Part shown: piece by piece, positions 11,401 through 58,830 of the stretch | Layout: every line of letters starts with the position of its first letter | Numbering within the stretch: position 1 is the stretch's first letter | NCBI GenBank assembly: GCA_007449985.2 | Contig: VIIQ02000031.1 | Coordinates: 1 to 64,000 of the forward strand | DNA length: 64,000 bases | Source of the DNA: Desmodesmus armatus | Lineage: Eukaryota > Chlorophyta > Chlorophyceae > Sphaeropleales > Scenedesmaceae | Direction: 5' to 3' | Program-made: the position numbers and the translations under genes | The notes under the pieces: model-generated | Database searches by the model: none | What the model saw: the letters and a program-made list of their open reading frames with translations, nothing else | What the model was told of the DNA's origin: nothing

Positions 11401-14400
11401 AGCTACCTCTACTTCTGCAGGTGGGTTAGGGTTTGGGTGTCAGGGTTTAGGATGTTGGGGGTTATTTCTGAACCCTTATCCCCTCTGCAGGTGGGTGGTG
11501 TTGAAAACAAGTGTGCGGAGTTTGGTACAGGGCAGGGGAGGGCAGCAATGCTAGCTATGCTTCTGCATGTGGACGGCTGGTTGATCCAGTGGACAGAGAG
11601 AGAGAGAGAGATGACGCGGAGTGCCAGGCACACCGCGTTGTTTAAGGGGGAGAACGTGTGTGATGCTCTGCAGTCGCCACGTCCCCACCATGCCCCCAGG
11701 TGCAAGAGACACCCTAGGGGTCAAGGGGGTTGTTTAAGCTTTCTTCTCTTCTTGTGTGAGGTTTCATTTTGGAGGTGCACTTCGTTTTTCCTTTTGCTCC
11801 ATGTTGATCTGGCGTATGTTTGTGCATTTTTGACGGCTGCATGTCTTGTGTTCCATATTTCTTCCACATGTCTACCTGCCAGGTGGTGCAGTCTTCTCAG
11901 CAGTCTAGGCAATGCTGGTCCTACAACTCCCAATCCTTTCAGCTTTTCTTCTGTGTTTTTATATATGCAGCGGACACTCCTAGCATAATTGTGGTGAGTT
12001 TTACTTCCGCTTTGGGGTCGAATATCTGTAATGCTTTCATCAGACGGTCGTGCTGACGTTCTGCTCGTGTTTCCTGCTGAGACGGGTCTGTATCTCTGCA
12101 ATACTTTATCTCTAGCAGCTCGTAACTCCTGGCGTGGTTCTCTGTCCGTACGAGCATGGCGTCTGGTTTGCAGTGCGCACTGATTCGGCGCTTCATCCCT
12201 ACAGGCATATCTTTCGGGAGGGCGGCGAGAGGGATTCTGCTTTTGCTTTTCATGATCGCGCATCTTCTGCTCAAACCTACATCGCTCATAGCCAGTTCCT
12301 TTGCTCTATCTCCGTCGTTGATCGCCTGTACGATCAGGGAACCCGCGTCGTTGTGCCTCTTGGTGACCGCCCCGGACAGCGCCGGGCAAGCACTCAATGC
12401 GTGGTGTCCGCCATCCTGTTGGCCACAGAGTGGGCAGCTGCAGGTGCTGCTTAGCTTGTATCTGTTTAGCAATTTGTTGGTCGGCAGCAGGCCCCATCTG
12501 TACTGAAGAATGAGTTTGCGTCTTCTGTGCAGGACTTGGTTGTTGTTCATGAAAAGGTGGCTGTATTTTGGGTGTACGTTTTTGGCTTGGTCGGCCCACG
12601 CGCTGTAGTACACAGTTGACGTGTTTGCGCTACCCAGTGCGCAGTCCTGTTTTGCTGTGTTTTCAGAGTTTCTGCCAAATTCGCAATGGGGGTGTGTTCG
12701 CGCCTGGTATCTGTCTTGGTGACAACTTCTTCAATGGAGTACGGCCAGAAGTAGGTTTCTCTTGCATTACTCTGTACTTTGAAGTGATGGTTGGTTCTTG
12801 TTTTTCTTTGGCCACTTGTACCCAGTGGACAAACTTACAGTCAGGGAAGTGGTGGGCAATTCACAGTACGGCATAAGGGGCAGGGCAACTTGGGTGTGGT
12901 TATTGCGTCCATTCAGGGCAAGGCAGTTACAATGGAATGGAGAGCTTCTGCAGGTGGACGGCCGCCGCCCGCGGCAGACTGCTGCTGTTCGATGCTGTAC
13001 TGGGAGGTGTACAGCCCTTGCTTAGACAATCACACCACCTTGCGTCCTCCCGACGCACCTCGCTCTTCGCCCCGCCCCCCATTTCACCACGCCAGTCGCT
13101 CACTGCCACCCCCCCCCCCTTTCTTGTCCCCCCCCCCTTTCTTCTGAATCACAGGGCTGGCCTTGAGTACCTTCGTACCTCAGGCCAGCAGCCCCATGTG
13201 CTGCATCTGCATGAGTGGCAGACTGCTGCTGTGTCTATGTGTACTGGGAGGTGTACAGCCAACTGGGGCTGTACCGCCCCCGTGTCGTGCTCACCATACA
13301 CAACCTGGACAACACTGGGGAGTGCAGGCAGGATGAGTTTGCATACACAGGTGTGTGGGTAGGCGGGGGGGGGGGGGGGCTGGGATGGGGGCTGAGGGTG
13401 GTGGGGTGGGGTGAGGGGTGGGGTGAGGGGGTGGGGGGGGGTGAGAGGGGGGTGAGAGGGGGGGTGATGGGCGGGGGGGGGGGGGAGTGGAGGGGTACGG
13501 CAGTACAGTTGCAACCTTTGGTGGGTTGAGTTCCGGTACTCAACCCATCCCAGAGATCACCACAGCCAACTGGGGCTGTACCGCCCCCGTGTAGTGCTCA
13601 CATACACAACCTGGACAACACTGGGGAGTGCAGGCAGGATGAGTTTGCATACACAGGTACGTGGGTAAGGGGGCCGGGGGGGGGCTAGGGGGGGCAAGGG
13701 GGGGGGGGGCCAGGGGGGGGGGGGCAGTGGGGTTGGGGCCGGGGCGAGGGGTGAGGGGTGTGTGGGTGGGTTGGTTGGTTGTGGAGCCCTCACCCACGGT
13801 TGGTGCGGCCCAAATTGACTCTGGCTGTACATTATCATCACCACAGCCAGTTGTGGCTGTACCGTCCCCTTGTGGTGCTCACCATTCACAACCTGGACAA
13901 CACTGGGGAGTGCAGGCAGGACGAGTTTGCATACACAGGTATGTAAATGGTACCAAACACGGGTGGCCATGGTGGAGGGTGGGGGGGGTGGAGGGCTTAG
14001 GCTGAGGGTGGGGGTGGAGCTGGTTGTGAGGGTGGGAGGGGAGGGGGAGAGTGGGGGGTCAAAGTGGGAGTGGGGGGGGGGGAGGGGGTGAGCCTCACCG
14101 GGTGGGGGGGGGGGACGGGGGCGAGGGGGTGGGGGGGGTTGTCAGGGGTGAGGGTGGGGGGAGGAGGGAGAGGGGTAGAGGTCGGGGTGAGGGCGGGAGG
14201 GGTGGGGGTGCGGGTGCAGGAGAAGGGGTGGTGAATCGCCCCGTGCTGCGTGCAGTGACCTGACGGGGTTTTACTGGGTTCTGTTTGATGCAGCCCTGCA
14301 TGTGCTTGGTGGCTGTTGCTGATGTGTACTTCTGATAGCACGTGAGGCATGTGCTGCAAGAAGTACACATCAGACACAGCTGGCAAGCACATGTGTGACT

Positions 14401-20755: not shown

Positions 20756-23700
20756 TCAGGTCGCAGGGTGCTGTGCCGCTGCTGACGCTCCCGCTGCTGC
20801 TGCCGCTGCTTTGCGCTGCGCAAGCGCCTTGCACACTGGCTTGTGCTGCTTCCAGTGCTGGTTTTGGCAAGCCTTGCTGCAGTACCGCACCCCAAGGCAA
20901 CCCTTGCACAGCCCCACACCCCCGCCAACCAACTTCAGCTCCGACGGGCCTTGGGACGCCCCACACACTGGGTTGTTGCAGAGGGTCTTCAGCGGCACAG
21001 CGCAGCACACCTTGCCTGTTGCCAGCAGCTGCTGCACCAACTCCTCCACAGCAGCAGCGACTTCACTGGTGCAGTCAGCTGCTGTCTGCCGTGCAGCAAG
21101 CAGCTGCTGCAGCTGCTGCACAAGACCCATAGCATCGCACCCAGCCGCTTCTATGACCTCACTATGTGCTGTGATCCAGTTCTGTATCACATCGACTAGC
21201 ACCTGGCTGTGACTCCAAGTTGGCATGTTGGGTGCATCCTTGTACACACGGTCGAAGAAAAACCAAGCTGCACTGAAGTCCGGCACTGTAGGTGATGGCA
21301 TCTGTAGGCTGCTGAGGCTCCTGGGTCCCCTTCTGCTGCTGCTGCTGCGGTTGCTGCTGCTGCCAGCTCGTTGAGGAGCTGCAAGCTGGGCTAAGAGCCC
21401 TCGTAGACTTTCTCTCAACTCCTGAGCCCACAGCAAGCAGCAGCGCCCAAACAGCACCAAAGTCGGCAGCCGCGAAGCAGGGTCATACCATGTATGGTAC
21501 AGCGGTGCGCCCCGGCTGCGTTGCCCTGCTGTGCTTTTGGGATGCCAGCGGCTTGCAGTAACGCCGCCGGCCAGTGGTCATCCTGCAATAGCGTTACAGC
21601 CACGCGACAGAGGAGGAAGGGCACGTGCGCTGCGCCCGCGCATAGACGGGCTGTGGGTGCGCTGTCTGTCGATAGAAGCTTGAGGCAGCTCGTTGCCAAA
21701 CTGAAGAAAGCTCGGACAGACTTTCCGGAGTCTTGTGCTTGGCAGCAAAGCGACACCGCTGGCAGGGTACCATCCCACGCGCAGAAAAGAAGCCGAAAGA
21801 CTCCGATCTCCAGCAGCTTCTGATCGAAATCCTTCGCAACTCCCGTTGCTGTAGCTCGCACGAACGCCTCGATGACCGCAAAAGCGTCAACAGCGGCAGC
21901 GAGGCAAGTCCTCAACAGCCCGAGGGTTGTTGTTGACTCTGCAGGAACATCAGGCAGGCCGAGCGCCACCCAGCCAGGCGGTATCTGTGCTGCCAGCAGT
22001 GCAGCCCGAGCTGACTCATCAACCCCTTCTGTCGCAAGCTTCATGCATCGCCGCAGGATAGGCCCAAGAGCTGCTACGGTTGCCTCCAAGGCGTGCACGA
22101 GCTGCTGTTTGCGCTCTGTCTCTGCAGTTCCGGCACTGCTGCTGGCTCTTGCAGGGCCGCCCCGTTCTGCTGCTGCCACGTCTGCTGCCACACTGCTGTG
22201 AGGCCCTCGACAACTTTACCCCCGAGCTTCAGAACTGCGGGCAGCATGTCGGAAAGCCACTGCACCGGCAGCTGCTGCAGCAGCCAAGGGTCATCACTCA
22301 CACGAGGCAGGGCCTCTGCATAAGTCTCCCACCATAGGGAGGCCTGCGCACCAACCCTTGCGGCAGTCTTCATCCGCTGCAGGCAAGCAGCACGGCCGGT
22401 CGGCAGTCGCGCAGCGCCATGCAACCCCACGAGCGGCATCAGAAGTGTCAGCTGCCGCTCTAGCTGCAGCTGACCCTCCGGCAGCTGCAGATGCTGCTGC
22501 CACAGCGCTGCCTGCTTCTCTGGAGGGATGTGAGTGCCGGGTCGCAGCATGAGGTCCATCGTTTGCCCGAACACTGTCGCAACGTCATGTAGGGTTTCGG
22601 CAACTGTTATGACACCAAACTGAAAAGGTGTGGAGGGCTGCGCGAACATGACTGCTGCCCACACAGCCACCCGGGGGTCCACACCCAGTAGTGCAAACAG
22701 CTTGCGGTGTGAGCGGGTCAGCTTGGGCAGTAGCCGTACAGCGTCTGTGAAATGGGAAACTGCTTGGGCAGTGTACTCTTCTATAGGAAGCTCTGGAGGG
22801 AGTTGGTTGAGCCGTTGCCGAACTGCTCGGACCTCCAGCTGGGTAAGCCGCCTGCCAATGCTGCTGCCAGCAGCAGTGCTGCCGCTGGCAGCAGCAGCAG
22901 CACCACTGCTGCCACTGCTGGCGATGCTGCTGGCAGCAGCACCGCCACTGCTGCCGCTGCCGCTGCTGCGCCCAGCAGCAGCAGCGCCACTGCTGCTGAT
23001 GCTGCCGTCGGCAGCACTGCTGCTGGCAGCAGCACCGCTGCTGCTGCCGCTGCTGCGCTCAGCTGCATTGCCAGCCCCTGCGTCTCCCTGCAATGCTGCT
23101 GCACCTGCAAAGTCATCCTGCCTCACGCCCTGCCGCTCCTTGATCATAAGTGCAAGGGCCAGCACCGCACCGTTCAAGGCCACCGACGGAAGGAAGTGCG
23201 ACGAGTTGATCACTTGCAGCAGCGTGGGGTTGTCTATCAATGCCTGATAGTCCATATGGATGGGCGCACAGCCCTGTGAAAGCCATAGATCGTTGCTGAG
23301 ACCTGCAAAGCCCTGTGGAGGAGTCCTTGCATGCGCAAGGCTACATCCGGGTGCGGCTGCTGCTGTCCGATGAGGAGGTTGCTGACTAGGTGGACACTGG
23401 CTAAGGCCATGTGACACACTGGCCCTGCTAGCGAGGCGACCATGTGCTGCCGGTGCACACCAGCAGGCCACCAGGGTAACAGTAGTGTCACAAACAGCAG
23501 CAGCATTTCAGCATGGGCGACTGTAGCTTCGGGGTACTCCATGCTGCTGGTGCTGCTGCTGCTGGGTGCTGTTGGTGTGTTGCTGCTTGCCCCTGCGGCG
23601 GCTGCAGCAGCAGCAGCTTGCTGTGCCGCCTTTGTCATATCTGCTGCTGTGTCTGTAAGCACCTCTGGTAGGGTGCGTAGCAGGCCTGACTGCTCTAGCT

Positions 23701-36031: not shown

Positions 36032-36668
36032 GATGTGTGCTGTATAGTTGTCTTCTGTTGTGTATGCGGTCTTGTAGCCTAGGCTTCGGTATAAAACAAA
36101 TGTGCATAATTGGTGGTCAATGTTTGAGGGGCCCAGTCGAGCGGATGCCTTCAGGGTATGCGGTTACGACACTAGTTTCCGAGACCTAGTTTGGTCGCTG
36201 GCCTGTCAATGTTGACTTGATATTATTTCCATCATACCATCTGTTTCATACAAATTGAAAGACGCAATGCGACAAATCCATTCGAAGCCAATCGAAGCAC
36301 GACAGCACACACAGCACAAAGAAGATTCGTCACTGCAGGCCAAGGTGGCTACTTAGGAGGCAGCACATGTCTAGGTGAGATCAAGCTGCGGAGTGGGAGT
36401 GCTTGCAACCCTGTGATGCATGTGAAGAGTGGTGGGGGATTGTTTTAGGTGCACCTGCAGCATGCTACAGCGCAATGCGTTGCGGGATCGCCCTGCAGAG
36501 TGGCTATGCCACCCAGCCTACTCACTATAACATATAACTGTTCCCAAAATCAGTGTAAAACGTTGCAAGGGACGAGTGCACTGCTTTCATGTTGAGGCCA
36601 GGCTGTGCTGTCACATGGGGTGCGATGTCCATCCCATCAATCCTGCGCAGGATCCAGCTGATCTGTTG
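36032..36668. promoter_or_regulatory. Divergent intergenic region
   Basis: Lies between the start codons of the leftward cysteine-rich gene and the rightward beta-helix surface protein; AT-richer than its surroundings (for example 36225-36275). No specific element recognised. Confidence 0.45.
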
Positions 36669-39600
36669 ATGCACAGCCAATCAGCGGCACTTTATCAGAG
36701 GACACTTCAAGTCCTCTTGATGCTAGGGGTGCTGCTGGCTGCCACCCCGCTTACACCCCTACCAGCAGCAGCAGCACCCACACCAGGCCGAGCAGTAGCT
36801 GCGACAGCGGGTTTCCAGCAGCAGCTGTCAAGACCTACGACAGTCTGCAGGCTCTTTATCCAAGGCAGCACTCCCCTGCTACCTACAATCCCATTCAAGC
36901 AGCAACAGCAACAGCAGCCCCTGCAGGCCAGCTTGTCATGCTCCGGGGGTCCTCCCATAACAGTAGCAGCTCATAAGGCACTCTCCGACGTCCTCAAGAA
37001 GCAGCAGACGACCAAGGGAGTCACCTGGGACCCTTCGAACTGCGAAAACCTGGGCTGCTTGCTCACCATCTGCGGCAACAGCTCAGCTGTGTTCAAAGCG
37101 CCTCAGGTGGTGGGCGTGCATGACCAGCGCCTCGCAGCAGCAGTGTGCATCACGGGCAACAGTAGGGTAGAGGTTCAGGACGGGCAGTTTTCCCGCCTTT
37201 CTACCAGCCAGGGGGCTATCTTGGCGGTTGGTGCTGCGAAGGTCACACTTTTACGCACCAGGGTGACTAACAACCGCGCCAACGGAACCCTGGGTTTTGT
37301 GACAATGGGTGGCGGGCTGCTAGTGCAGGAACGAGCAGAAGTTCACATCCGCGACAGTGTGATCTTGGGGAATCGTGCTGACGGAAGCGTAGCAGCACTT
37401 GGAGCAGCGCTTGCAGTGCAGGACAGGAGCAGGGTAGTGGTGTCAAACAGTACCTTTGCAGACAATGCTGCTGTTGCGGCTGGGGAAGGCGTGGGTTACA
37501 GCTCCGGGGGAGCTATGTTTGTGGACGGCCGAGCTGTTGTGAGGTGCGCAACTGTACATTCACAGGCAACGTGGCTAACGGGACAGCATTGGGCTCTGCT
37601 GGGGCTGTGAATGTGATGCATAACGCCACTCTGCAGCTTTTAGGCTGCAGGTTTGTAGGGAACTCGGCTAGGTCTCTGGCAACAGCTGTAGGAGGGGCTT
37701 TGATCGCGATGAATTCTACAGCTGTCAATATTACCAATACTACGTTTGCGTCCAACGCTGCACATGGCGGGAGTGGTTTTGGTGCTGGGGGCGGTGTGTT
37801 TGCTGCCAATGAGGCCGTTGTGACTGTTGTCGGCGGCGGTTTTGTTGACAACTTTGCTAATGGTTCGTTGGCCGGGACTGGTGCTGGCGTGGTTGCCTTT
37901 GACAACGCTAGTTTGGTCCTGGTTCGTACTGTATTCAGCGGGAATCAGGTCGCTTCAGTTAGCTATGTTGCAGGGGGTGCTATTGGGTTGTATAATGACA
38001 CCAGTATGCACATGGCGAACAGCGCTGTGTCAGCCAACTATGCGAACTCCTCTACTGCTTCTGCAGCAGGGGGTGGTATTGGGGTGTTTGGCCAAGCTGC
38101 GGCGCACATCCTGCACTGCAATATCACACAGAACTGGGTCAAGGGGTCCGGTTCCGTGGCCGGGGGAGGGCTGTTTTCACAATGCACGACTGGTTTGCCG
38201 GATGAAAGTGGGAAGTCCACGCTGTGCTCTGCTGCCGCAGGCAGCAGCAACACCAGTGGGACGAGCTTGATTGTTGAGGATAGCCTGTTTGAGTCAAACA
38301 GTGCTGCTGCTTACGAGTTGACCGGCGGTTTTGCGGGAGGTGGGGCGGTTGGGGGTCAGGGCGACGGACGTGTCACGTTGCGGCACAGCCGCTTCGTGAA
38401 CAACCACGTAGCAGGAATCAGTGCTACAGATGGTGGGGCCGTGTATGGAGCCGGTGCTGCCGTTATCACCATAGATGCGTGCCAGTTCAGTGGCAATACT
38501 GCTGCTGGGATACACGGCTACATGACTCCAAGCCTGGTGTCATGTGGGGGTGCTCTCGCTGTTCAGGAGCATTCAAGTATCACAGTCAACAGCAGCAGTT
38601 TCGAATTTAACTTTGTGGATGGTATCCAGACGTGCGGGGGCGCTGCGTGTGCTATCAACAATGGCACTCTGAGTGTCTACAGCTCCCGTTTTGTGGGGAA
38701 CAACGCAGCAGGGGCTATGACATGTGGTGGCGGCGTGTGTGCGAGCGGCATGGGACTGTTGCATGTTGAGGGTGTTGTATTCGAGGGAAACCAGGCGTCG
38801 GGTGTTAGTCAGGGCGGCGCCGCATGCGCGACTGCGTCTAGTAACGCCACCATCACCCGTTGCATGTTCCTGAGCAACAAGGCTGGGTGGGCGGGTGGTG
38901 CTGTTGGTGTTGGGGACGGCTGCGTTGTAGAATTGTCTCACAGCTCATTCGTCAACAACAGCGCAACAAATGTTGAGGCGGGGTGCGGCGGTGCGATTTC
39001 TATTGGCTTTGAAGCACTAAAGCAAGACTTTGCTTCATGCTCCATTGACAGTAGCACCTTTTCTGGCAATAGTGCATGGGGCCGGATGGGATCTGGTGGC
39101 AGTATCTTCACAGCGAATGCCGCTGTGAAGATTACTAATAGCATCTTCACGGCGAATGTTGCGCAGCAGGGCGGGGCGTTGGGAGGGTCTGGGGTGTCCT
39201 GGGAGATATGGAACAGCAGCTTTGCGAATCACAGCGTTATTGGACCTGGCGGGGCGATGTTCACCTCGGGAAGTTTGAATGCGAGTATCTCACACAGTAG
39301 CATCACACATAACAGGTGGGTACGTGGCTGCAGTGTTAGGCTAGGTTAGCGCTCAGGGGCGGGGTGCTAGTGCTGCGCAGTATGGCATGGCAAGTGAGCA
39401 GTATGGCTTGACCATCTGTTGCAGACTTCAGCCTTGCCTGCTGCATGCTGACGTGTTGCAAGCTGCAGGCCGCAGGTTAGTACGACTTTGCTTGGTGCTG
39501 CTGCTAGTAGACGCCTGCTGTGAAGCCGCCAAGCCAACTCTGCTGCCACTGCTGTGCGTGTCTGTGTATTGTGCACAGGGGCAGTGAAGGTGGGGGGCTC

Positions 39601-41842
39601 TATGCAGCAACCTCCCTGGGCTTACAGACCTTTCACCTCTCCATCAGGGACACTGTCATTAGCGGTAATGAGGCACAGACAGGCGGCGGAGTCTTCCTTC
39701 GCGCTGGAGAAACACACATTGGACCTGGCACCCTCATCACCAACAACAGCGCCTCACAGCAGGCAGGGGGTCTTGGTTGGGTTGGTAGCTGTGGCAGTGG
39801 GGAGGTGTGCACCTCTGTGTTGGAGATTTCCTGCGATGCAGCTATCAGCAGCAACACTGCAGCGGTGGCAGGTGGCGGGTTGTTTGTTGGACAGGCACTG
39901 AACATGCACCTAGAGGCGCCTGGGGAGGATTGTGCTGCAGCAGCTGTGCGCAACAATAGTGCGGCGTTTGGGGACGCGGACGTGTTTTTTGTTCGGGGCG
40001 TGTGCAAGGCTGGGGAGGTGTCTCGGGGTGGGTGGTGTGATGTGTGTCCCCCGAATATGGTTGGGTTTGATCCCCAGGCGGGAAAGTGTGAGGTGTGTCC
40101 TGATCATGGGGTCTGTTTGGGCGGCGATGTGTTGCTGCCAGAACCATTCTGGTGGCACTCTTCCAACAACAGTACGCAGATGCATGCTTGCCCAAACCCG
40201 CCGCATGCAACCACAGCCTGCATGTGCTGAACGCACATCGGCCAGTTGACTGGCAGTGCTCTGACGGGTACTATGGGCATGTGTGTGGCAGCTGCTCTCA
40301 TGCGGGTGGCTACGGCTTTACAGCCCCTTTCAAGTGCGGCAAGTGCATGTCGCCTGGAAGGGCGATCGCACTGTATCTGTCAGGGTTGCTGGTGCTCGTT
40401 GCGTTCCTAGCATACTCTGCTCAGGCCACGTGGGTGGACAACCAACAACCGAGGGTGGCGCCCCGGGTGTCAGACACGATCAAGTGTCTCGTGCTATACC
40501 TCAACATGGTGCTTATTTTGAGTAGTGTGAGGGTTGACTGGCCGAAGTCGCTGGGTGTCTTACACACAGTGACTGCATGGCTGTTGTCAACTGCCTCTGG
40601 GCAGGTCTTGTCTGTTGATTGCCTCTGGCCGATGCACAAACAGGGTGCCCTGCCTCGCGCAATCTGGAGGCAGGTTGTGTACTTGATAGTGCCTGTGTTT
40701 GTGACTATGGGTGTGCTGCTGGTTTTTGTTGCGTTCTGGGGTGCGCCTGCGCTGCTGGCCAGGGCATGTAGGCCCTTTGGATGGAGGAGGAGGCGCAGGG
40801 CGTTCTCTGCATTTGTGGCAGCCAAAGTGCCGACAGCTGTGCTGGTCTGCTTGTACCTTTTCTTTGCAGGGTTGGTTAGGGTTGCATGGGGCATGTTTGC
40901 TTGCCTGAAGTTGGACCTTGCAGGACTGCAGCCCTTCCCTGAGTTTGCAGTGGCGACAGCGGCTTATGGGTACTGGGTGCAGGATATGGAGCAGGCTTGT
41001 TACGAAGGCTGGCATCTGCCTTGGAGCTTGGGGCTGGGTGTTTGCTGCACGGTGGTTTTCTGTGTGGGCTTGCCGGCTTGCTTGTTCTGGTGGTTGAGGA
41101 GGAACAAATCACGGTTGAATGAGCTGGCGTTCATGAGGCACTATGGCTTCCTTTACGCTGATTTCAAGCGGGATCGCTACTGGTTCGAGGCGGTTGTCGC
41201 TGCACGCACCGTGGTGCTGGTGTGCATTGCTGTCTTCTCGAGTGTGATCGGGGCGTACTATGGAGTCGTGATGTTGGTCGTGGCGTTTCACGCGAGCCTC
41301 GCGCTGCAGCTCAGTTTGAGGCCGTTCGCTTTCACACAGCTGCATCGTCTGCACTGGGAGCACTCGGGTGCATGGATTTTGCAGCGTGTGTGACTTTGAC
41401 CTTTTTCACGGGATATGTTGGTGTTGCTGCCCCTGCGCAGATCTCGATCTACAAGGAAGTTGCGGGCGCGTTGGTGCTGACGGTGCATGCTCTGTTCATC
41501 TGTTGGTGCTTGTGGGTCATGTTGTCAGGGGTGCGGCTGCCTTGCTTACGCTCCTGCACACACGCTATCGCACAAGGTTTGGGCAACGCATACAGTAAGG
41601 TGCGCCGCCAATGCGCGGGGGCGATCGTGTGCTGCTGTCATGGCAAGTTAGCGCAGCGGCATGCAAGTGCAAGTGGATTGGTCCCCACGATTGTTGTGCC
41701 GCCTGGTGTTCAATGCATGCCAGCAGCCCGCAAGGGTGGTACGCCTGTCAGTGGTGCTGGCACTCCTGCTGATGGCAGCAAACTGAAGGGGCTAGTGCCA
41801 GCCAGCTTGCACTGTGCTGATGACTTGTCAAGCCAACCGTAG
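36669..41842 (+). CDS. Beta-helix (Pmp-like) surface protein with Cys-rich segment and multi-TM C-terminus
   Basis: ATG 36669 opens a signal peptide (LLMLGVLLAATPLTPLPAAA). About 1,000 residues of Pmp-type parallel beta-helix follow, with recurrent GGA/GGG and SxFxxN motifs (NSTFADNAA, NTTFASNAAH, SSFEFNF). A Cys-rich stretch (WCDVCPPNMVGFD, CEVCPDHGVC, DGYYGHVCGSC) leads into at least six hydrophobic helices, including ALYLSGLLVLVAFLAYSA and VVLVCIAVFSSVIGAYYG, with YGFLYADFKRDRYWFE between two of them. This domain order is typical of a large algal surface-protein family of unknown function. An intron at 39316-39578 (GTGGGT...GTGCACAG) joins in phase at HNR|GSEGGG. The frame breaks near 37543, 40200 and 41370; each needs one base. 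ATG 36618 is an alternative start. Confidence 0.8.
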
Positions 41843-43820: not shown

Positions 43821-46800
43821 TCACAGGTGTTTCACACACAGCCTGGCCAGTGCCTCCGGCAGGTCTGGCAGCTGGTGGCAACCATGAACCCACAACACCT
43901 GCAAGCACGTGAGCTGCACAAGTGACGTTGGCAAGCTGGACAGCTTGGAGCAGCCGGACAGGACCAGCTCCTGCAATGCAATCAAGCCCCCAAGGGACTC
44001 GGGCAGGCTTGTCAAGCCAACGCAAGCTGACAGGTCCAGCACCTGCAATGCAACCAAGCCGCTGAAGGACTTGGGCAGGCCGAGCAAGCCACCACAATGT
44101 GACAGTGACAGGCCCTTCAGTGCAGCCAAGCCCCCAAATGACTCAGGCAAGCTGGTCAAGCCACGACAACAAGTCAAATCCAGAAAGGTCAGTGCAGCTA
44201 AGCCCCTGAATGACTCATCTTTCAGGCTGGTCAAGCCTGTGCATCCGTACAGCTGCAGCCGTTTTAATGCAGTCAAGCCCCCAAACGACTCAGGCAAGCT
44301 GGTCAAGCCTTCACTTCCTGACAGGTCCAGCTGTCTCAGTGCAGCCAAGCCACCAAACGCCTCCGGCAGGTCAGCACTGGAGAGACACACATGCAGCACT
44401 TGGAGTGCCTTCATGGACTCAAAGGGCAATGGCAGGCTGCTTTGTCCCCAGCAGTGCAGCTCGCGCAGGGCTGTCAGCTCACCAAAGGTGTTTGGCAACT
44501 CGCCTGAGTGATCCCACAGAAGAAACTGCAGGTCAGGCCAGAGAAACTGCCCCCAACTCTGCCTCACTGTGGCAGAGTTGGAACGCATTGGCTCTGCGTC
44601 GTGAAGGAGAAGCTGCTGTAGGTGTTTGCAGGAGCTGAGGGTGCTGAAAAGAGCTTGCAGCTTGTCCTTATCAAGCAGTCCGACATTGATGTCGAGTGCC
44701 CTCAAACAAGGCAGTGCTGTCACTGCAGCCATGGCTGCTGCTAATCCCCTCCAGCAGGGACATCCTATGCCGCTGCGGGGGCGCACCCATGCCAAATCCT
44801 GCATGCAACATGTCAAACAACAGAAGCACGGTTGCAGAGCCCATTTGCACGTAATTGTCGAATGGCTGTGTGGTGGTTGCAGAGGGATACTCAGTGGCGC
44901 ATCAAGCAGAAACAAGTATGGTTTGTTGTGATCACTGGGGAGACATCATGGTAGTGCCTTAGGCCAGTCACTCCATCTCAGATGGAAGGGTGACCCTGCT
45001 TTGGCTGGCTCCTTTCTCACTGCAGTTTATTGCCACAACGCAACTGCAACCGTATTTTGCAGAGTAGCTTGTGAGTTGCTGTCGCCTCTTTCTCAAGCAT
45101 ACGGCGCCGGGTGTCTGTGCTCCTGGTATCCACTCTGTCGCAAACCACTCACCGACAGATCCAGCACCACCAGAGTTTGCAGACAGGGCGCATTATCAGC
45201 TTGAGCAGCTGCCGGCCACCAAGCTGGAAGCTTGTGCGGGCTCGTATTGTCACTGCAGAAACCGTCGATTGCCCTATCAGACAGGCTGCCGAGCCACATC
45301 AGGTGCGGTGCGTGGTGCTGCACGCCAGGCGGCAGGTGGTGGCTAATGAAGATGCGCACAGCGCTGAAGTTGCAGCCCTGCAGCACGCTGTAGGCATCGG
45401 CCGATGTGCACCCACTCAGGTTGACCCCCACTGGTTGCTTCCCCTGCATTGGCAAACAACATCAATTGATGACACCCTGTAAAATGCTGCTTCTCTCTGG
45501 TGGCTGCTGTATAGGCAGCCCACTGGCAGGCGGTCATTGTTGCCGCAATAACAATCGCTGGGCGCTGGATTGTCAGCTGGATTGTCAGCAATTTGCATCG
45601 CGCCACCTGGGCGGTAGCGGTCTATGCTTGCAGGTGCTAAGCTGGCACACACAATCGCATGAAGACCAGGCCCGGTGTGCAGATATACACCCGGCTGCTT
45701 GGGTGACACACACTGGCATGTCACGTCAGTCTGGTACAATGGTGGCACTCGTCGGATCTTGCCGGGTTGCCTAGTCTATTTCCTTACCTCGATTAGGCCT
45801 CGCACTGCATGGTCACTGTTCACCCATACGCGGCTGCCGACGTACTCGGCGGCTTTATGGAGGATGGACTGGCCCAGCACCCTGATTACGTCAAGGGCTG
45901 TGAGACGCTCATCCAGGACGCCATGTGGATCATTGCTGTAGGCACTGACTGTCTTTGTGCTGATGAGGGACAGCTGCTTGAGCTTCCTGAGGGCTTGGTG
46001 CGCCTCACCCGGCCACCACGCCTCCCACACCAGCATGGCCTTGGACAAGGGCTGCCCCTGCAGCACACTGATGCTGTCCAGGAACATGTTCTGTGCTGCC
46101 TGTGAGAGCCTGCTGAAGCTGTGGTACACCACACCCTGCAGCCGGGCCTCTGAAGAGCCCATGTGGGTAGGTGTCCACTCTCCGTGACTGAAGGCACCCA
46201 CCTCCTGTGTGTAAGCAGTCAAACAGGAAAGCAGCAGGCGACCAGTCGTCTACTGTGGACGAGGCTGAGATCGTTTGTGGATGGGCCAGCTGCACACCTT
46301 GCAACTATTGCGATGAAGGCTGACTGCACAAACGAGATTGAAGGCAACATAAGCAGTATGCTATACCATGCTACAGGTGTAGCTTTGATTTGATTTGATT
46401 TGATCTGGTTTGATTTGGTTTGATTTGATTTGTGCTTCCCTGCCACTCCAAAACAGGTCTTGAGGCCACCTCTCACCTGCCACAGCTTGCGAGGGTCCCA
46501 CTCTTCCTCCACCCACAGGGCGCCCCCTATGACCTGCAGGGCGAGGGGCAGGCCGCTGCATGCCTGCAGCAGCTTTTCCTCCAGGTCACACATGCCCAGC
46601 TGCTGGAGCTGCTGCTCACCAACCCCATGGCACTGCCTGAACACCTGCCGTGCTGAGGCTTCGTCCAGAGTGTCCATGCTGTGGTGGCGCAGGGCAAGGG
46701 CGTCCTTCCTGACAAGAGCCTGCAAAGCAGCAGCAGCAGCAGGTTGCGATGTTACCTGGTGTGCTTTCAACCCTGTTGGGTGGCGAATGCTGGCTCGTCT

Positions 46801-48404
46801 ATTACTGATGTCAAGGGCGGCCGGTGTACAGGCTGCGCGCCTGCATGCATGCTGGTGTGTGCGTCGATGTGTGTGTGGTGGGCTGAACCACTTCAGCAAT
46901 GCACCTTCTGACCTACACACTGAGCAGTATTGCTACAGATACACCCTGCACCGTGGTCCACCTTGTAGACCGTGCTGCCGGGCAGTGCCTGCACCCTGCT
47001 TGTGATGATGACCCTGCTGCCGCTGCTGAACACCGGGGGCAGCAGGCCATCCAGCTGGTGGTCATGGTTGACGTTGTCCAGCAGCAGCAAGACCTTGTGC
47101 TGCTGCACCAGCTGCGCGAGAGACTGCAGCAGTTGCGCGTTACTGCCTTCAGGCTCAGCTACTGCAAGGCCCTGCAACAGCTGCACCAGGTGCCGCTGAA
47201 GCTGCTCGCTGTTGCTGCCTTCAAGATCAAGCTCCACCATCACCGCCTTCTCAAACTGCTTGGTGCTGCTGAGGGTGTTGAACAACAGGTGTGCCAGCGT
47301 TGTCTTGCCGAGCCCGCCTGCACCCATGCAACATTCACAAAACACGCACAGACACAGCAGGGCGTGACCCACATGGCATGTAAAAGGAAGGCACGTTCTC
47401 TGGGCGATTGGTTGACTTGGGGAATAAAAGCATCGGCTAGCTTGCACAAGCACACTTAGACAGCATGTAGACATCCTGACTTCCCCACAAAGCGGGCCGC
47501 TGGCCTGCTGGTCAAGTCATGGTGCGTGATTTTTTTCAACCTGCCCCACCTGGGTCCATCGCAACATATATCTGCCCTCACCTGGTCCGTACAGCCACAG
47601 CCCCAGTGTCCCGGGTTCATCCACCACCAGCTGGGCTGTCAGCTCTGCCAGTTGCTGCTCATAGCCGACAAGCCCGGGAGGGACGTAGGCCAGCCGCTGC
47701 TTGGCAGGCAGCTGCTGCAGCGCTGCAGCAGCCACCCTGCGCGCAATCTGCCATTCCTCGTCCATCGGCGGCGGCACCGCCGGGCCCCTGCTGCTGCTGT
47801 TGCTTTGGAACAGCCCTGCTGGCTGCTGCTGTTGCTGCTGCTGCTCCTGTGGCGTCGCGTAAAGATGTATTGCTTGGTGCTGCCTGCGCGCACCCTGGAC
47901 GTCTTTCAGGTCCCGTATGTTGCGCAACATGCGCTCAGGGTTGACGCGCTGCAGGTCCCGCCATTCGGCCGAGTCCTCATCGCCTGCCAGCTCACCCATG
48001 CGGCGCTGAATGTCGCTGCGCAGCTGCTCGACTGTGAGGTGCTGCAGCAAGCTGTGGTGGTGCATGTACACGGGAATGATGTAGGGCTTGGCGCCCCCTG
48101 TGGGGTGGTCAGGGTGGCCGTGCATGACTATGTCAAGCTCCCGCAGGCACCAGAAGCGTGTGGGGTAGGACTGTGTCAGCACCACCACAAACACTGCGCT
48201 GGTGGCTGCTGCTTTCACAAGCTCGGCTGGCCATGCACAGCCCAGCTGCAGGTCAGCGTGGTCGATGTACGTTGTTAAGCCTGCTGCTTTAAGTGCTGGC
48301 TGGACGATGCTGGCAGCAAAAATGCGGCCATGCTCGTCTGCAGATGTGTGGGAGATGAAGACCTGCGGTTGCAGGGTGTTCTGTTCGCCAGCCATGCAGC
48401 CCAT
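43821..48404 (-). CDS. TIR-NB-ARC-LRR (TNL) immune-receptor-like protein, complete
   Basis: Six exons: 48404-47582, 47317-46962, 46719-46477, 46204-45788, 45443-45153, 44798-43821. All join in phase and give 1,035 residues. TIR domain: residues about 13-150, with VFISHTSADEH and, at 85-90, WCLREL; Glu89 aligns with the NADase glutamate of plant TIRs by motif position. A Gln-rich linker follows. NB-ARC: VGYEQQL before the P-loop G273-T281 (GPGGLGKTT), kinase-2 VLLLLDNV at 350-357, RNBS-B GSRVIITSR at 374-382, GLPLAL at 449-454. In the winged-helix part, ALD (577-579) stands where plants have MHD. LRRs of about 24 residues (LPESFGGLTALKRLQLYGC type) fill the last 200 residues; the protein ends right after them. 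Known TNLs sense pathogens and signal through TIR NADase products; that role here is inferred. Introns are short (242-354 nt) and free of exon copies. Confidence 0.9.
46380..46432. repeat. TTTGA microsatellite in TNL intron 3
   Basis: About ten units of TTTGA / TTTGG-type pentamer in tandem. Confidence 0.8.
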
Positions 48405-48701
48405 CCTGCGATCAGGCCAGCACCAGCAGCACCAGCAGAAGCAGAGAGGGTTTGGTGACAACCCCAGCTGTAGCACTGGGCGAGCTGCACTGCTTCTTCG
48501 GCAGGTGGTGGTTTCCAGAGGAAACTTACGGTTGGTGCACGCCTTGAGTCACAGTAGTACTTGGGATGATCTGCCCGGACCAGGGCAGCCTCACAGTTAT
48601 GTTGCTTTTGGGCACATGCACGTGTGCAGTGACGAGGAGCGAGAGCAAGCCTGTCTGAACCGAGGGCGGGAAACACCTTTATCTTTGAAAATTTAACAAC
48701 A
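48405..48701. promoter_or_regulatory. Putative bidirectional promoter, TNL / membrane protein
   Basis: Only 297 bp separate the start codons of the two divergent genes, so both 5' leaders and core promoters must lie here or overlap. An AT-rich patch (CTTTATCTTTGAAAATTTAA) precedes the rightward ATG by a few bases. No other motif recognised. Confidence 0.55.
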
Positions 48702-49823
48702 ATGAGCGTGCGGCTCCCCCTGCTGCTGGAAGAAGATACCGGCCCTTCCGGTGACCTGCTGATCGAGGTTTGCCAGGCTGTTGACCTCGCACTACTTCAA
48801 ACACTACAGGAGGCCGTCAAAATATTGCAGCTTGAACGGCTTGCATCTCTGATGGCGTCGGCTCCTGCATTTCGGATTACTGTGGTGTCCTCTGGCTTCG
48901 AAGAGCACAAAGAATGGCTCAACTTCCTCGTCTCAGTCCTGAACCTTATCGCCACCATATCCATACCATTACTGTTGTGGTGGTATGGTAAGCAGCAGGA
49001 GAAACAGCAACAGCAACAGGCAGCACAGCAGCGGCTACAGGGCCATGTTGGCCAGCTCAGCAGTGCTGGTGGTGCTGCCATAGAAGTGATTGGCTCCTTC
49101 AAGGACGACTGCAAGTCTCTAGGCGTACCATACACGGATGTGTTCAGGTTCAAAAGCTTGCTTGTTGGCCCAGCAGCAGCAATCACCACCCAACAGCTGC
49201 AGGAGGTTGACCGCGCACGCAGGATTCTGCAAGGCATCTGGGACAACATCATGGACGATTACAGAGCTGACATGCTTGGAGGCCCCATCACGGACCCTCG
49301 GCACGGCCGCATGCTGCGCAGGGGCTTGACCTACATGGAGCTGGTGGAGCCTCTCGAGGCTGCAAACTTTGCCCGCCTGCAGGCTGTTAACAGTAGGGTT
49401 GCCTCAGAGGGACTCTATGTACGCCGCGCGCCACCTGCTACTACTGGGCAACACGCCGCTCATGCCCAACAGAGCAGCATTGTGAGAGATGCTGCCATCA
49501 TGGGTCGTCCTGGAGCACGACCCAGCCGCTTCAGGTGGTTGGAAAACCAGCGGACCCTCCAGCTGACTGGCAAGGAGCTGTGGAAGATCGAAACAGTACA
49601 CAATGTCAAGGAGTATTGCGTTGACGCAGCAGCAGCGGTGCTTTTGGAGGCAGGGGGTTCTGCTGAGCGGCAGGCCTGGGGCAAGGCTTTGGTGAGGAAC
49701 TGGGCAGCCCTGCAGCAGGCGTGCACACCCCTCACACCACCCGCAACTTCTGCCACTGCTGCTGCTGCTGCAGCTTCAGGGCCGCAGGTGCAGGTGGTGA
49801 CACACACCCCTGCAGCCCCGTGA
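48702..49823 (+). CDS. Uncharacterised single-pass membrane protein, 373 aa
   Basis: One uninterrupted exon from ATG 48702 (context AACAACA before it) to TGA. Residues 71-96 (EWLNFLVSVLNLIATISIPL, then LLWWYG) form one strong transmembrane helix, followed at once by a Lys/Gln-rich coiled-coil-like stretch. A longer helical domain follows (DRARRILQGIWDNIMDDYRA; NVKEYCVDAAAAVLLEAGG), then an Ala/Pro-rich tail. I recognise no family. It is divergently paired with the TNL gene over 297 bp, so co-regulation or partnership is possible but unproven. The N-terminal 70 residues have no signal-peptide look, so orientation is open. A TGTAA at 50289-50293 could end the transcript. Confidence 0.7.
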   Translation: MSVRLPLLLEEDTGPSGDLLIEVCQAVDLALLQTLQEAVKILQLERLASLMASAPAFRITVVSSGFEEHKEWLNFLVSVLNLIATISIPLLLWWYGKQQEKQQQQQAAQQRLQGHVGQLSSAGGAAIEVIGSFKDDCKSLGVPYTDVFRFKSLLVGPAAAITTQQLQEVDRARRILQGIWDNIMDDYRADMLGGPITDPRHGRMLRRGLTYMELVEPLEAANFARLQAVNSRVASEGLYVRRAPPATTGQHAAHAQQSSIVRDAAIMGRPGARPSRFRWLENQRTLQLTGKELWKIETVHNVKEYCVDAAAAVLLEAGGSAERQAWGKALVRNWAALQQACTPLTPPATSATAAAAAASGPQVQVVTHTPAAP

Positions 49824-54659: not shown

Positions 54660-57059
54660 CTAGACAGCCTGCAGCTTCAACAACAGGTACTCCTGCTGCT
54701 GCTTCTGTGTCCTACACTGCCGCCATTCAAAATACGGGACGCTCACCACAACATACCCCCGCACCGCAAGCGCCCTGTTCCTGGCCTGAGTAGGCCCATC
54801 GAGCCTATTGCCCGGCTGCAGGAAATGCCATGGCCCGTCAACCTCGATAGCCAGCTGCTTGCCGGCGCTGGTGACAGCCGTTATGTCAAGCCCGTAGTGT
54901 CCATCTGCTGTGTACTGCCCGAGTGCTGGGGGCCGCTGCCAGGCACACTGCACCTCTGGGAGCCTCTGAAGCGCCTCAAACACGGCGAGCTGTGTGTGGG
55001 AAGGCGCGGAATTGCTGTCCTGGTGCTGAAGTTGCTGCTGCCAGCTAGCCCTGCACTGCTCTAGCTGCTGTGCTGACAGCACTGCCTGCAGGCCCTCTGC
55101 TGCATGGGGTCCTGCACTGTCCTGCAGCCATAGGCGCACCTGAAAGAGCTGCAGGAGGTCTATAGAGCCCATTAAGTGCCATGCATCCCTGCATGCAGCC
55201 ACCAGCTGCAGCACGAGTGGAGCGCAGTCCTGCGCGTCCAACACTGCAGCGGCCCAGCACATGTTGACAAACCCCCTGCACACGCTGCTGCTGTCAACAA
55301 CCCGGCCCCCTGCCATTTGGCCCAAGGCAGCAAGCTGCTGCACAGCTTGCACCAGCAACTGCTGCGGCAGGAACTCGCTGCGATGCCCGAGCTGCGCGCA
55401 AGCATAAGCGATGCTCGCGAGGCTCTTGACGTCTGCACTGCAAGCGCCTGCATCGCCCTGCCCAGCACGCAGCAAGGATACTCCATGCTGCTCTAGGGCT
55501 GCCAGCAGCTGCTCCGGCAGGTACTGCAGCTCAGCGCATGCCCAAAGCGCTAGGGCATAATCCTGCAATGCTGGCTGGGCCCCTGGACGCACCAGCGCTT
55601 CCTGTAAGCTACGCAGCTGCGCCTCGTGATCCCCCTGCGCCCCGCGATCTCCCAGGAGGTAGATAGTGCCGCTGCTGCTGCCTGTGCTGAGCTTGGCAAG
55701 CGCCCAGAGCACCATGCTGATGCTCTGTGGTGCTGCATGGGGCGCCTGCAGGACAAAGCGGCCCAAGCAGGCCTGCAGCTGCTCTGGCTGCATCTGCTGG
55801 CCCATGGTGGCAACTGCAGCCAACACGTCCTTTACTGCCTGTGCTGACGCTGTGGGCAGGAGCTTCACAAAAGCCTGCAGGACAGCATGCAGGTCCTGCG
55901 GCTGCAGGGAGTGTCCCGTGCTGGACACTGCGGTCAGCATGTTGCTGATATCCTGCGCGTTGGCAGAGGACAGCAGCTGCAGGAAACGGGCCATGTGCTG
56001 ATCGACATGCTCCTGTGGCAGCTCCTGCTGCAGCTTGGCAAGGGCCCAGAAGCTGGTGCTGACAGCCTGTGGGCTGGCATCCTGCAGGAGCTTCCTTGAC
56101 TGCTCTGCAAGCTGCTGCAATCCTGCGGTCGGCACCTGCTTGCGCATGACTGCCAACGCCCACAGCAGATAGCTGACGTCCTGTGCGTTCGCTGCAGATA
56201 TCTGCGCGCAGAACGCCCCCAGCAGCTGCTGCAGCTGGCAGTCTGTCAGCGCTGCGCCGGACCTTGCGACTCCGTGCAGCACATTTGAGATGTGACGGGT
56301 GTTGGCGTGCTGCAAGCGGTCCTGCTGCAGCAGCTGAGGCAGCAGCTGCTCTATCACACACGGCAGCTTCAGCTGGCTGCATGCATAAATTACCGCTGCT
56401 AGCTCTGAGGCTGGCACAGGGGCGGCTGTGTCCTGCAGGCGCTCAGCACACTGCTGCAGGGTGCACAGCAGCGCCTGCACTTCAGGGCCATGCACCATGC
56501 GCCTGTGCCTGCGGCAGAGCTTGGCTGCTGTGCTGAACGCTGCGCTGGTGTCATAGGCGTCCAAGGAGGCCTCATGCTGCTGCAGGACTACTAGCAGCTG
56601 TTGAAGGCTGGCAGCAGCTCGGATGTCCCTGCTGCGCTCACCGGATGCTGCCTTGCTGCTGCTGTCGTTGCTGTTACTGCCGCCCTTGTCACCCCTGTCA
56701 TGACCAGCCTTGCTGCTGGACTTGGTGCGTTTGTTGCTCCCACAGTGGTTGCTGCCATGCCTGCCAGCTCTGCTTGCAGTGCTGCTGGTGCCATTGCTGC
56801 CGCCACTGCTGCTCTGCCTGCTGTTGCTGCTGCTGTGCCTGGTGCTGTCGAGGCTGCTGTAAGCCTGGAAGGCATGGCGCGTCAGTTGGGAGGGATTCAC
56901 ACCAAGCCCCGACCTGTATGACTGCCCATGCTGCAGTGCCAAGAACTGGGGACTGCTGGGGGTACAGATGCCAGGACCTGCAAGGCAAGCTGGCAGTATT
57001 GGGAGCATTGCCGCGGTTTTGGCCTGGTGCAGTCCCAAATGCTGGTGGCAGGAAGGCAT
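54660..57059 (-). CDS. OPR-type repeat protein with C-terminal RAP domain, 799 aa
   Basis: A single open exon from ATG 57059. The first 60 or so residues are a basic, Ser/Ala-rich leader like an organelle transit peptide, followed by a long Ser/Gly/Lys low-complexity region. From about residue 150 to 640 come degenerate helical repeats of about 38 residues with signatures such as SYLLWALAVM, TSFWALAKLQQ, SMVLWALAKL and YALALWACAELQ. Residues about 720-797 form a RAP domain: LDITAV, IEVDGPWHF, TQARNRALAVRGYVVVSVPY, FEW. Octotricopeptide-repeat proteins bind organelle transcripts and control their stability, splicing or translation; in algae most act in the chloroplast, and RAP often ends them. 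The RNA target is unknown. Intact, no frame break, no introns. Confidence 0.88.
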   Translation of the reverse strand: MPSCHQHLGLHQAKTAAMLPILPACLAGPGICTPSSPQFLALQHGQSYRSGLGVNPSQLTRHAFQAYSSLDSTRHSSSNSRQSSSGGSNGTSSTASRAGRHGSNHCGSNKRTKSSSKAGHDRGDKGGSNSNDSSSKAASGERSRDIRAAASLQQLLVVLQQHEASLDAYDTSAAFSTAAKLCRRHRRMVHGPEVQALLCTLQQCAERLQDTAAPVPASELAAVIYACSQLKLPCVIEQLLPQLLQQDRLQHANTRHISNVLHGVARSGAALTDCQLQQLLGAFCAQISAANAQDVSYLLWALAVMRKQVPTAGLQQLAEQSRKLLQDASPQAVSTSFWALAKLQQELPQEHVDQHMARFLQLLSSANAQDISNMLTAVSSTGHSLQPQDLHAVLQAFVKLLPTASAQAVKDVLAAVATMGQQMQPEQLQACLGRFVLQAPHAAPQSISMVLWALAKLSTGSSSGTIYLLGDRGAQGDHEAQLRSLQEALVRPGAQPALQDYALALWACAELQYLPEQLLAALEQHGVSLLRAGQGDAGACSADVKSLASIAYACAQLGHRSEFLPQQLLVQAVQQLAALGQMAGGRVVDSSSVCRGFVNMCWAAAVLDAQDCAPLVLQLVAACRDAWHLMGSIDLLQLFQVRLWLQDSAGPHAAEGLQAVLSAQQLEQCRASWQQQLQHQDSNSAPSHTQLAVFEALQRLPEVQCAWQRPPALGQYTADGHYGLDITAVTSAGKQLAIEVDGPWHFLQPGNRLDGPTQARNRALAVRGYVVVSVPYFEWRQCRTQKQQQEYLLLKLQAV

Positions 57060-58830
57060 GGACAGTGTGGCCTGACAGCCTGTGCTGGGCTGGGCATGTG
57101 CTATGCAGGCATGTCGTTGCAGACTGCTGCTTCAAATTGATTCAGCACAGCGGATAGGATCACCTGTCGCCCAGCAAGCAGCAGATGTGCTGCTATAAGT
57201 GCCCACAAAGGTGGTCAAGAGGTGGGCAGCTGCAGCACTGGCAAGGCCTGCTGCTGAAGCAAAGCTATCTCTTGATATGGCCCTGAAGTTGCTGTCGGCA
57301 AGCAGTACCACCTCGATGTTCAAGCAGGTAATGTGTCTCCACTGCTGCTGTAGGAGGTGTTGGGACAGCAGCTGTAGCAGCATTTGGACATGAGGTCTGC
57401 TCGCGAAGCTGTCAATTGAAGTCTGATGAAAATTAATATCTGGCACGTTCATCAAGTTATGGGTGCATCAGCATTTACTGTTGGGGTGATTAGGGAGTTA
57501 GTCAGAGTGATCAAGATCCAATCGGTGGTCACCAGCACCAGTTCGCTTTGCCGTGTTTCACATCACCAGCAGTCAGAAACACCAATCAGACGACTCACAT
57601 CGACCATGCATCAAAGCGCAATCTCAATCACCTGGCGTTTTACATGCTCATGTTCATGAGTACTGTCCTTGCCCATGCTGACTTCCCCATTGAGTGAAGA
57701 CGCAGGGACCAACATGCACTGATAAGTGCCATGAAAGTTGTATTACAGACGATGTATCGTAGCTGCTGACCCTGATGTTGACTGCAGGGATAGATCGCAC
57801 TGCGGGGACAGAGGGCATTGCCACTGCTGCACTAAGAGGGAGCACGTAGTGCCAACAACTTAACGCTGGCTGCAGACAGCTGGACCTTTCATTCAAGCAC
57901 CTGCTTGCTGCAAGAGGTGAGTGTGCACACATGCTGCAGCCTTGCAGAGCTTGTTTCGAAAACCTTTGGAGGGGGCAGCAGTAAACATTTTACTGAAACA
58001 ACAAGCACTGCCTGATCCCAACACTGCTGTGGCTGCCCGCTGCCCAAGTACCATTTGCATTGACAAGAGTTGCTGGCACATGGCCTGCACATGCTGCTTG
58101 GCCCAAAATGAGGCAAAGCCAAGCGGCGCATGGCACAGCCAACCCCAACACACGCGCGCACACATGAAAGCACGGCCACACGCAAGCCGTGCGCCTCAGG
58201 CAAGCAATCAGCTGACCAAAACCACGCAAAGGCGGCTTTTCACCCCGCACACTGCATCAGACAGCTGCTGCTGACACGGTACTGCTGGCATGCGCCAAAA
58301 CCGCCGCCAAAGCACCACAAGGCACCACCTCCCAAGCCCCTGAAGTGCCTGGCTGAGCTGCCAGCAGCGGCCTGTTTTCACATTGTATGTAGGGCACTCG
58401 GCCAGCATGCCAAGGCAGTACAAGGCCAAGCCGCAGCTGTGGTTGGATCGCCTGAAGTTAGCTACTCTTGCACATACCCCCACTCTCAGCAAAAGCCACA
58501 AACACTCACACGCCCACAAACACATGCAAGCCCAATATCAACACACCACAAACGTACACACAAGCACAGACAACCTGCTGCTGCTGTACAAGGGCAAGCC
58601 GCCCGTGCTGGTTGGGTTGCTACACCCCCTGCTTGCTTTGACTCCCAAAACCAGCGCGGCAGAACCCCTGCTGTGCGACCCCCATCTCCCCTACATCCCC
58701 TACTGCTGCCCAATATAGGGAAGGCGCCTTGACAGGGCAACCCATGGAGGGTGCCGTGCTGGTAGTGCACAAGGCAAGGGGTGCGGCGTCCGGAGACCTC
58801 CTAGAGATCTCGTAGAGATTGCCTGCTGCC
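57060..58830. other. Intergenic region between OPR-RAP and CK2 alpha
   Basis: No protein-like gene seen. It should contain the OPR-RAP promoter and the CK2 alpha 3' UTR; a minus-strand TGTAA at 57743-57739 is 1.1 kb after the CK2 stop, the nearest one I noticed. Confidence 0.4.

Follow-up and report, generated by a model that had tools for sequence, protein, structure and literature searches.

In seed plants, EDS1 heterodimers stand downstream of TIR domains: their EP domains bind TIR-made signals, and the EP domain has been described as uniquely defining the EDS1 family. A 2024 survey confines EP proteins to seed plants; it looked for lipase and EP domains jointly and grouped the matches with known EDS1, PAD4 and SAG101, a procedure that may have missed EP proteins lacking the lipase domain. 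Receptors with TIR, NB-ARC and leucine-rich repeat (LRR) domains (TNLs) have been reported in the chlorophyte Chromochloris zofingiensis (Shao 2019; Andolfo 2019, PMC7145615), with Feng 2024 cited for chlorophyte NLRs, and a single sentence of Andolfo 2019 places three EDS1 genes in a ~34 kb region of that genome together with five NLRs. Here we describe a locus of Desmodesmus armatus, within a window formed by the first 64,000 nucleotides of contig VIIQ02000031.1, in which a TNL gene stands head-to-head with a gene encoding a predicted transmembrane protein with an EDS1-type EP domain (TM-EP). The window TNL is not the first from a chlorophyte; the new part is the TNL/TM-EP pair. Neither a TM-EP protein nor its divergent pairing with a TNL was found described in the literature searched, in which subscription papers and bioRxiv preprints were thinly covered.

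The most informative feature of the locus is the TM-EP gene (48702–49823, + strand), which lies beyond the TNL interval described in the first-pass annotation. It is a single uninterrupted frame encoding 373 residues from 48702; a later start at 48852 is favoured because its match on another contig, C209, has an upstream stop and because of the N termini of its relatives. A transmembrane helix is predicted at residues 75–93 (48924–48980, +; Kyte-Doolittle mean 2.16), followed by an EDS1-type EP domain that spans residues 104–343 of the structural model (49011–49730, +) and whose Pfam match covers residues 131–227; in the predicted model, a long helix (residues 67–139) continues into the EP domain. 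Homology to EDS1 is supported by a match to Pfam EDS1_EP above the curated cut-off, by a profile comparison (E 3.1e-8) and by the predicted fold, all 14 of whose 14 best structural matches are EDS1, PAD4 or SAG101. The motif VEPL(D/E) is present, as is RPxR(Y/F), which EDS1 also has; a ligand-pocket comparison that covered the R493 position and its neighbours adds to the case for homology an arginine, residue 276 within RPSRF, at the position of EDS1 Arg493. An artefact of glutamine-rich composition was considered as a source of the EP match and judged unlikely, as the profile match, the fold and a negative control agree. The lipase-like domain PF01764 is absent from the TM-EP protein in the Pfam search, although Lipase_3 (PF01764) has 35 matches elsewhere in the same genome. 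We therefore file TM-EP as an EP-domain protein and not as EDS1 proper, since a predicted transmembrane helix replaces the lipase half.

The same form recurs in 12 metagenome proteins that are 44–66% identical to TM-EP, the label 'alga' that they and the NB-ARC relative P0001 carry in our trees and alignment being a presumption. Pfam EDS1_EP is matched by 13/13 aligned family rows at E<=0.1, and a single hydrophobic helix is found in 11 of the 13 (the other two start downstream) and in both paralogues of the D. armatus genome, with hydrophobicity means of 2.0–2.5, a range that none of the 14 measured plant rows reaches (<=1.6). Counted by its strict motif, the arginine at the Arg493 position is present in 11/13 family rows and 2/2 own paralogues; the alignment used to locate that position left out P0079 and P0081 and counted the arginine of P0058 despite its diverged tail. 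In the EP tree, the TM-EP rows stand apart from EDS1 and SAG101 (100/100); this tree was built without PAD4 rows, long branches meet at the TM-EP split, and four rows were dropped: P0056, which is truncated, P0058, whose tail has diverged, and P0079 and P0081, for lack of a match to the motif pattern. Four short metagenome relatives of 146–234 residues (P0053 and P0060–P0062, the last three having no precomputed Pfam match) hint that the TM-EP family is broader in environmental samples. None of 97 pattern stretches in a viral collection and none of 290 in a prokaryotic collection was confirmed by tblastn as an EP relative, and PADLOC and NCBIfam models gave no match to the EP protein (P0047) at E<=0.01.

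The pairing of the two genes is not confined to the window. The D. armatus genome searched (115.8 Mb, 831 contigs) contains at least six NB-ARC matches at at least five places and TIR matches at at least five places, the loci being identical, which gives at least five TNL loci: one on the window contig (C28), one on C783, two on C209 and one on C337, the four contigs spanning 75–786 kb. A search of the whole genome with EDS1_EP returned three matches, each of them head-to-head with a TNL, and a search with the TM-EP protein returned the same three loci, the next matches having E 0.096 or worse; all EP genes found (3/3) are paired with a TNL, and the genome yielded none elsewhere in these searches. 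On C209 the gene order is TNL (−), EP (+), TNL (+). At the C783 TNL, no EP gene was found by either the EDS1_EP profile or the TM-EP protein search of the genome. That TNL has a head-to-head neighbour ~0.2 kb away (L007:1317–2653, −), consisting of a multi-transmembrane frame and then a helical-looking frame, neither with a Pfam match; a membrane partner adjoining a TNL may thus be a broader pattern. In the window, the TNL and TM-EP genes are separated by a divergent intergenic stretch at 48405–48701, or 48396–48851 if the later methionine is used for both, that is, by 297–456 bp depending on the choice of starts; it is presumed to be a shared promoter. Intergenic similarity is 69% between C28 and C209, and 48% and 53% in the comparisons with C337, which suggests that block duplication gave rise to at least two of the TNL/EP pairs; the three therefore do not count as independent cases.

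The TNL gene itself (43821–48404, − strand) had been read in the first-pass annotation as six exons joining into a 1,035-residue protein with TIR, NB-ARC and LRR domains in that order, and this reading was borne out base by base. The exons (48404–47582, 47317–46962, 46719–46477, 46204–45788, 45443–45153 and 44798–43821) are separated by introns of the GT-AG type, with phase 1 at the end of exon 1 and phase 0 at the remaining junctions, and the gene is confirmed as real in the form of a predicted model. Translation likely begins at the fourth residue (48395), giving 1,032 residues, because three paralogues lack the first methionine. The TIR domain (residues 15–129, 48018–48362, −; Pfam TIR_2, 1.1e-13) contains a WCLREL motif, whose glutamate is at the catalytic position of plant and SARM1 TIRs, and it may possess NADase activity. 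The NB-ARC domain (residues 249–467, 46498–47660, −; Pfam NB-ARC, 1.9e-21) has two introns inside it and shows all four motifs previously claimed: GPGGLGKTT, which spans the junction of exons 1 and 2, followed by LLLLDNV, GSRVIITSR and GLPLAL, the P-loop, kinase-2, RNBS-B and GLPL motifs, respectively. Exon 6 (43821–44798, −) encodes the LRRs, as indicated by Pfam and Protein Data Bank (PDB) matches, several Pfam LRR models matching residues ~711–1030. The domain order is corroborated by the top PDB match, Roq1, which aligns over TIR (i-Evalue 0.00099), NB-ARC (1e-12) and LRR in turn; RPP1 is matched in a like order, its TIR stretch alone being non-significant (3.8). At the MHD site the protein reads ALD and so lacks the canonical tripeptide, which is typical of such receptors but not defining and is present in P0001, a EukProt transcript protein. 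No C-JID model matched in the Pfam search of the TNL. Intron 3 contains a GATTT pentamer repeat (46382–46429), with six overlapping 18-base matches against none expected from shuffles.

Four of the five TNL loci, the window copy and three others, are close paralogues sharing the exon order. Exons 1–4 of the window gene recur in order in the three paralogues at 63–84% identity, the recovered exon edges having GT or AG in place or only a few bases off except where the alignment ended early, and the sequences look to be under purifying selection, dN/dS being 0.17–0.56 in 24/24 comparisons of exons 1–4 (for exon 1 of C337, the first piece only). Taken together, these features place the gene model beyond chance. 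The second C209 copy (C209b) has two stops within exons 1–4, and exon 1 of the C337 copy is split over two frames. Between the LRR pieces of C209b (L009:7580–9418) lies an antisense frame (8009–8896) that is retroelement-like by our reading; a similar frame occurs in the window at 11939–12730 (−), and neither matches Pfam at E<=0.001.

In a tree of 30 NB-ARC rows (25 of 46 search matches and the five own loci), which has several long branches and moderate support, the four close copies group with P0001 (92/89), whereas plant TNL and CNL rows, with one JGI row among them, form a separate group (91/85) outside which the D. armatus copies fall; the position of C783, on a long branch, is uncertain. 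Nesting of the gene inside one land-plant clade, named in the first-pass annotation as grounds for abandoning its reading, was not seen. The gene is thus 'land-plant-type', as it had been called, in architecture but not in descent, and its place outside the sampled land-plant NLRs counts, with moderate support, against land-plant contamination. TNL exon 1 was confirmed in none of seven viral contigs. The genome is very probably that of a chlorophyte, given one DUF3707 (pherophorin-type) match, 49 Chloroa_b-bind matches and pieces of a Rubisco small subunit, split by introns, that match 1ir2, 9hvm, 1uw9, 1gk8 and 7jfo best in the PDB (114–115 bits), compared with 99 bits for 1ir1 and 1aa1; the former are mostly Chlamydomonas entries and the latter spinach. 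The earlier claims of an intact TNL in a chlorophyte, and of a bearing on the origin of plant immunity, both hold.

Elsewhere in the window, a long beta-helix (Pmp-like) gene is represented by frames that match PF13229 and extend over 36531–41842 (+), a later frame of this region (40104–41393, +) having no Pfam match and looking multi-transmembrane. A frame with a MYND zinc finger lies at 20756–21577 (−). At 54660–57131 (−), an open frame of 823 residues contains a RAP domain (PF08373) and perhaps encodes an organelle RNA-binding protein.

In our view, the locus is likely a green algal immune module in which two genes cooperate in TIR signalling. By analogy with plant biochemistry, from which the following steps are drawn, the LRRs of the TNL would sense a trigger, the NB-ARC domain would change its nucleotide state and the TIR domains would be brought together, whereupon the assembled TIRs would turn NAD+ into small nucleotide signals. 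TM-EP, presumably anchored in the membrane with its EP domain in the cytosol, would bind the TIR product, probably dimerise through its own helices and act at the membrane, directly or via a further partner. Self-dimerisation and membrane action are proposed because the EP domain is without a lipase half and because no RPW8-type helper NLR (PF05659) was found, a six-frame search of the genome giving 0 matches at E<=1. Alternatively, the EP protein could serve as a scaffold that binds the TNL and tethers it to the membrane or holds it in check there, with no small-molecule relay, the TNL depleting NAD+ or using some other route. Head-to-head pairing would suit any obligate partnership, and a transmembrane helix beside a long glutamine-rich helix does resemble an anchor; the EP fold and the R493 position are conserved, however, which suggests that the pocket has been kept, and plant EP domains bind TIR products, so we regard a pure scaffold as improbable.

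The neighbourhood might also be meaningless, a single chance TNL/EP junction having been copied by segmental duplication, as could be expected from the intergenic DNA that is still alike between copies (69% for C28 and C209) and from the C783 TNL, where an EP gene was not found. Against this stand the pairing of every EP gene found, with further matches starting only at E 0.096, the appearance of purifying selection on both genes and, in C. zofingiensis, an annotated NLR/EDS1 association; we hold a mere copied accident to be quite unlikely. Recent transfer or contamination could have brought both genes from a land plant, and the architecture is indeed like that of angiosperm TNLs. The sampled land-plant group nevertheless does not take in the NB-ARC domain (moderate support), the TM-EP rows form a clade of their own in the tree lacking PAD4 rows (100/100), the loci are spread over four contigs of 75–786 kb and metagenome relatives share the TM-EP form. 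Judged unlikely from the NB-ARC and EP trees, a land-plant source becomes extremely so in our overall assessment.

An EP domain that in a chlorophyte accompanies a TNL at each of the three copies found would shift the TIR-EP partnership towards the base of green plants, and the data suggest that this signalling partnership predates seed plants. More tentatively, in a scenario that could prove right almost as readily as wrong, green algae would possess a minimal EDS1 pathway, a divergent gene pair for a TNL and a one-pass membrane EP receptor with neither lipase half nor RNL, in which TIR nucleotides are directly perceived at the membrane, much as happens in bacterial TIR/effector pairs; the seed-plant proteins EDS1, PAD4 and SAG101 would in that case go back to an old EP module to which a lipase-like domain and helper NLRs were later added. 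The pair would suggest a TNL signalling route without RNL helpers and would offer a two-gene algal system for probing how EP domains read TIR products, and it opens the question of how old the EDS1 pathway is, and what form it first had, to direct testing.

Compared with described systems, the C. zofingiensis cluster (Andolfo 2019, PMC7145615) resembles the window in having chlorophyte TNLs and EDS1 genes close to NLRs, but it belongs to a genome of another size (about 58 Mb, against 115.8 Mb here), and its accessible description mentions neither an EP protein lacking a lipase, nor a transmembrane helix encoded by the EDS1 genes, nor genes paired head-to-head. With the land-plant TNLs Roq1 and RPP1, the window TNL has in common the TIR-NB-ARC-LRR order and motifs; it differs in lying outside the sampled NLR group, in its degenerate MHD (ALD) and in having no C-JID match. 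The EP domain is homologous to those of seed-plant EDS1, PAD4 and SAG101, with VEPL(D/E) common to all and RPxR(Y/F) as in EDS1, yet where the EDS1 family has an N-terminal lipase-like domain TM-EP has a predicted transmembrane helix, and the seed-plant TIR pathway uses RNL helpers whereas no RPW8-type helper was found in this genome. In bacterial Thoeris defence, a gene for a TIR enzyme lies beside one for a nucleotide-sensing effector, which is a membrane protein in some types. None of the Thoeris effector families in PADLOC matches the EP protein beside the TIR gene at E<=0.01; the window TIR exon does match PADLOC TIR models (PDC-S66 2.2e-8, SAVED_TIR 5.3e-6, ThsB 0.0021), and the likeness to Thoeris and other bacterial TIR defences lies in a TIR gene placed beside a putative sensor gene, here one for a predicted membrane protein.
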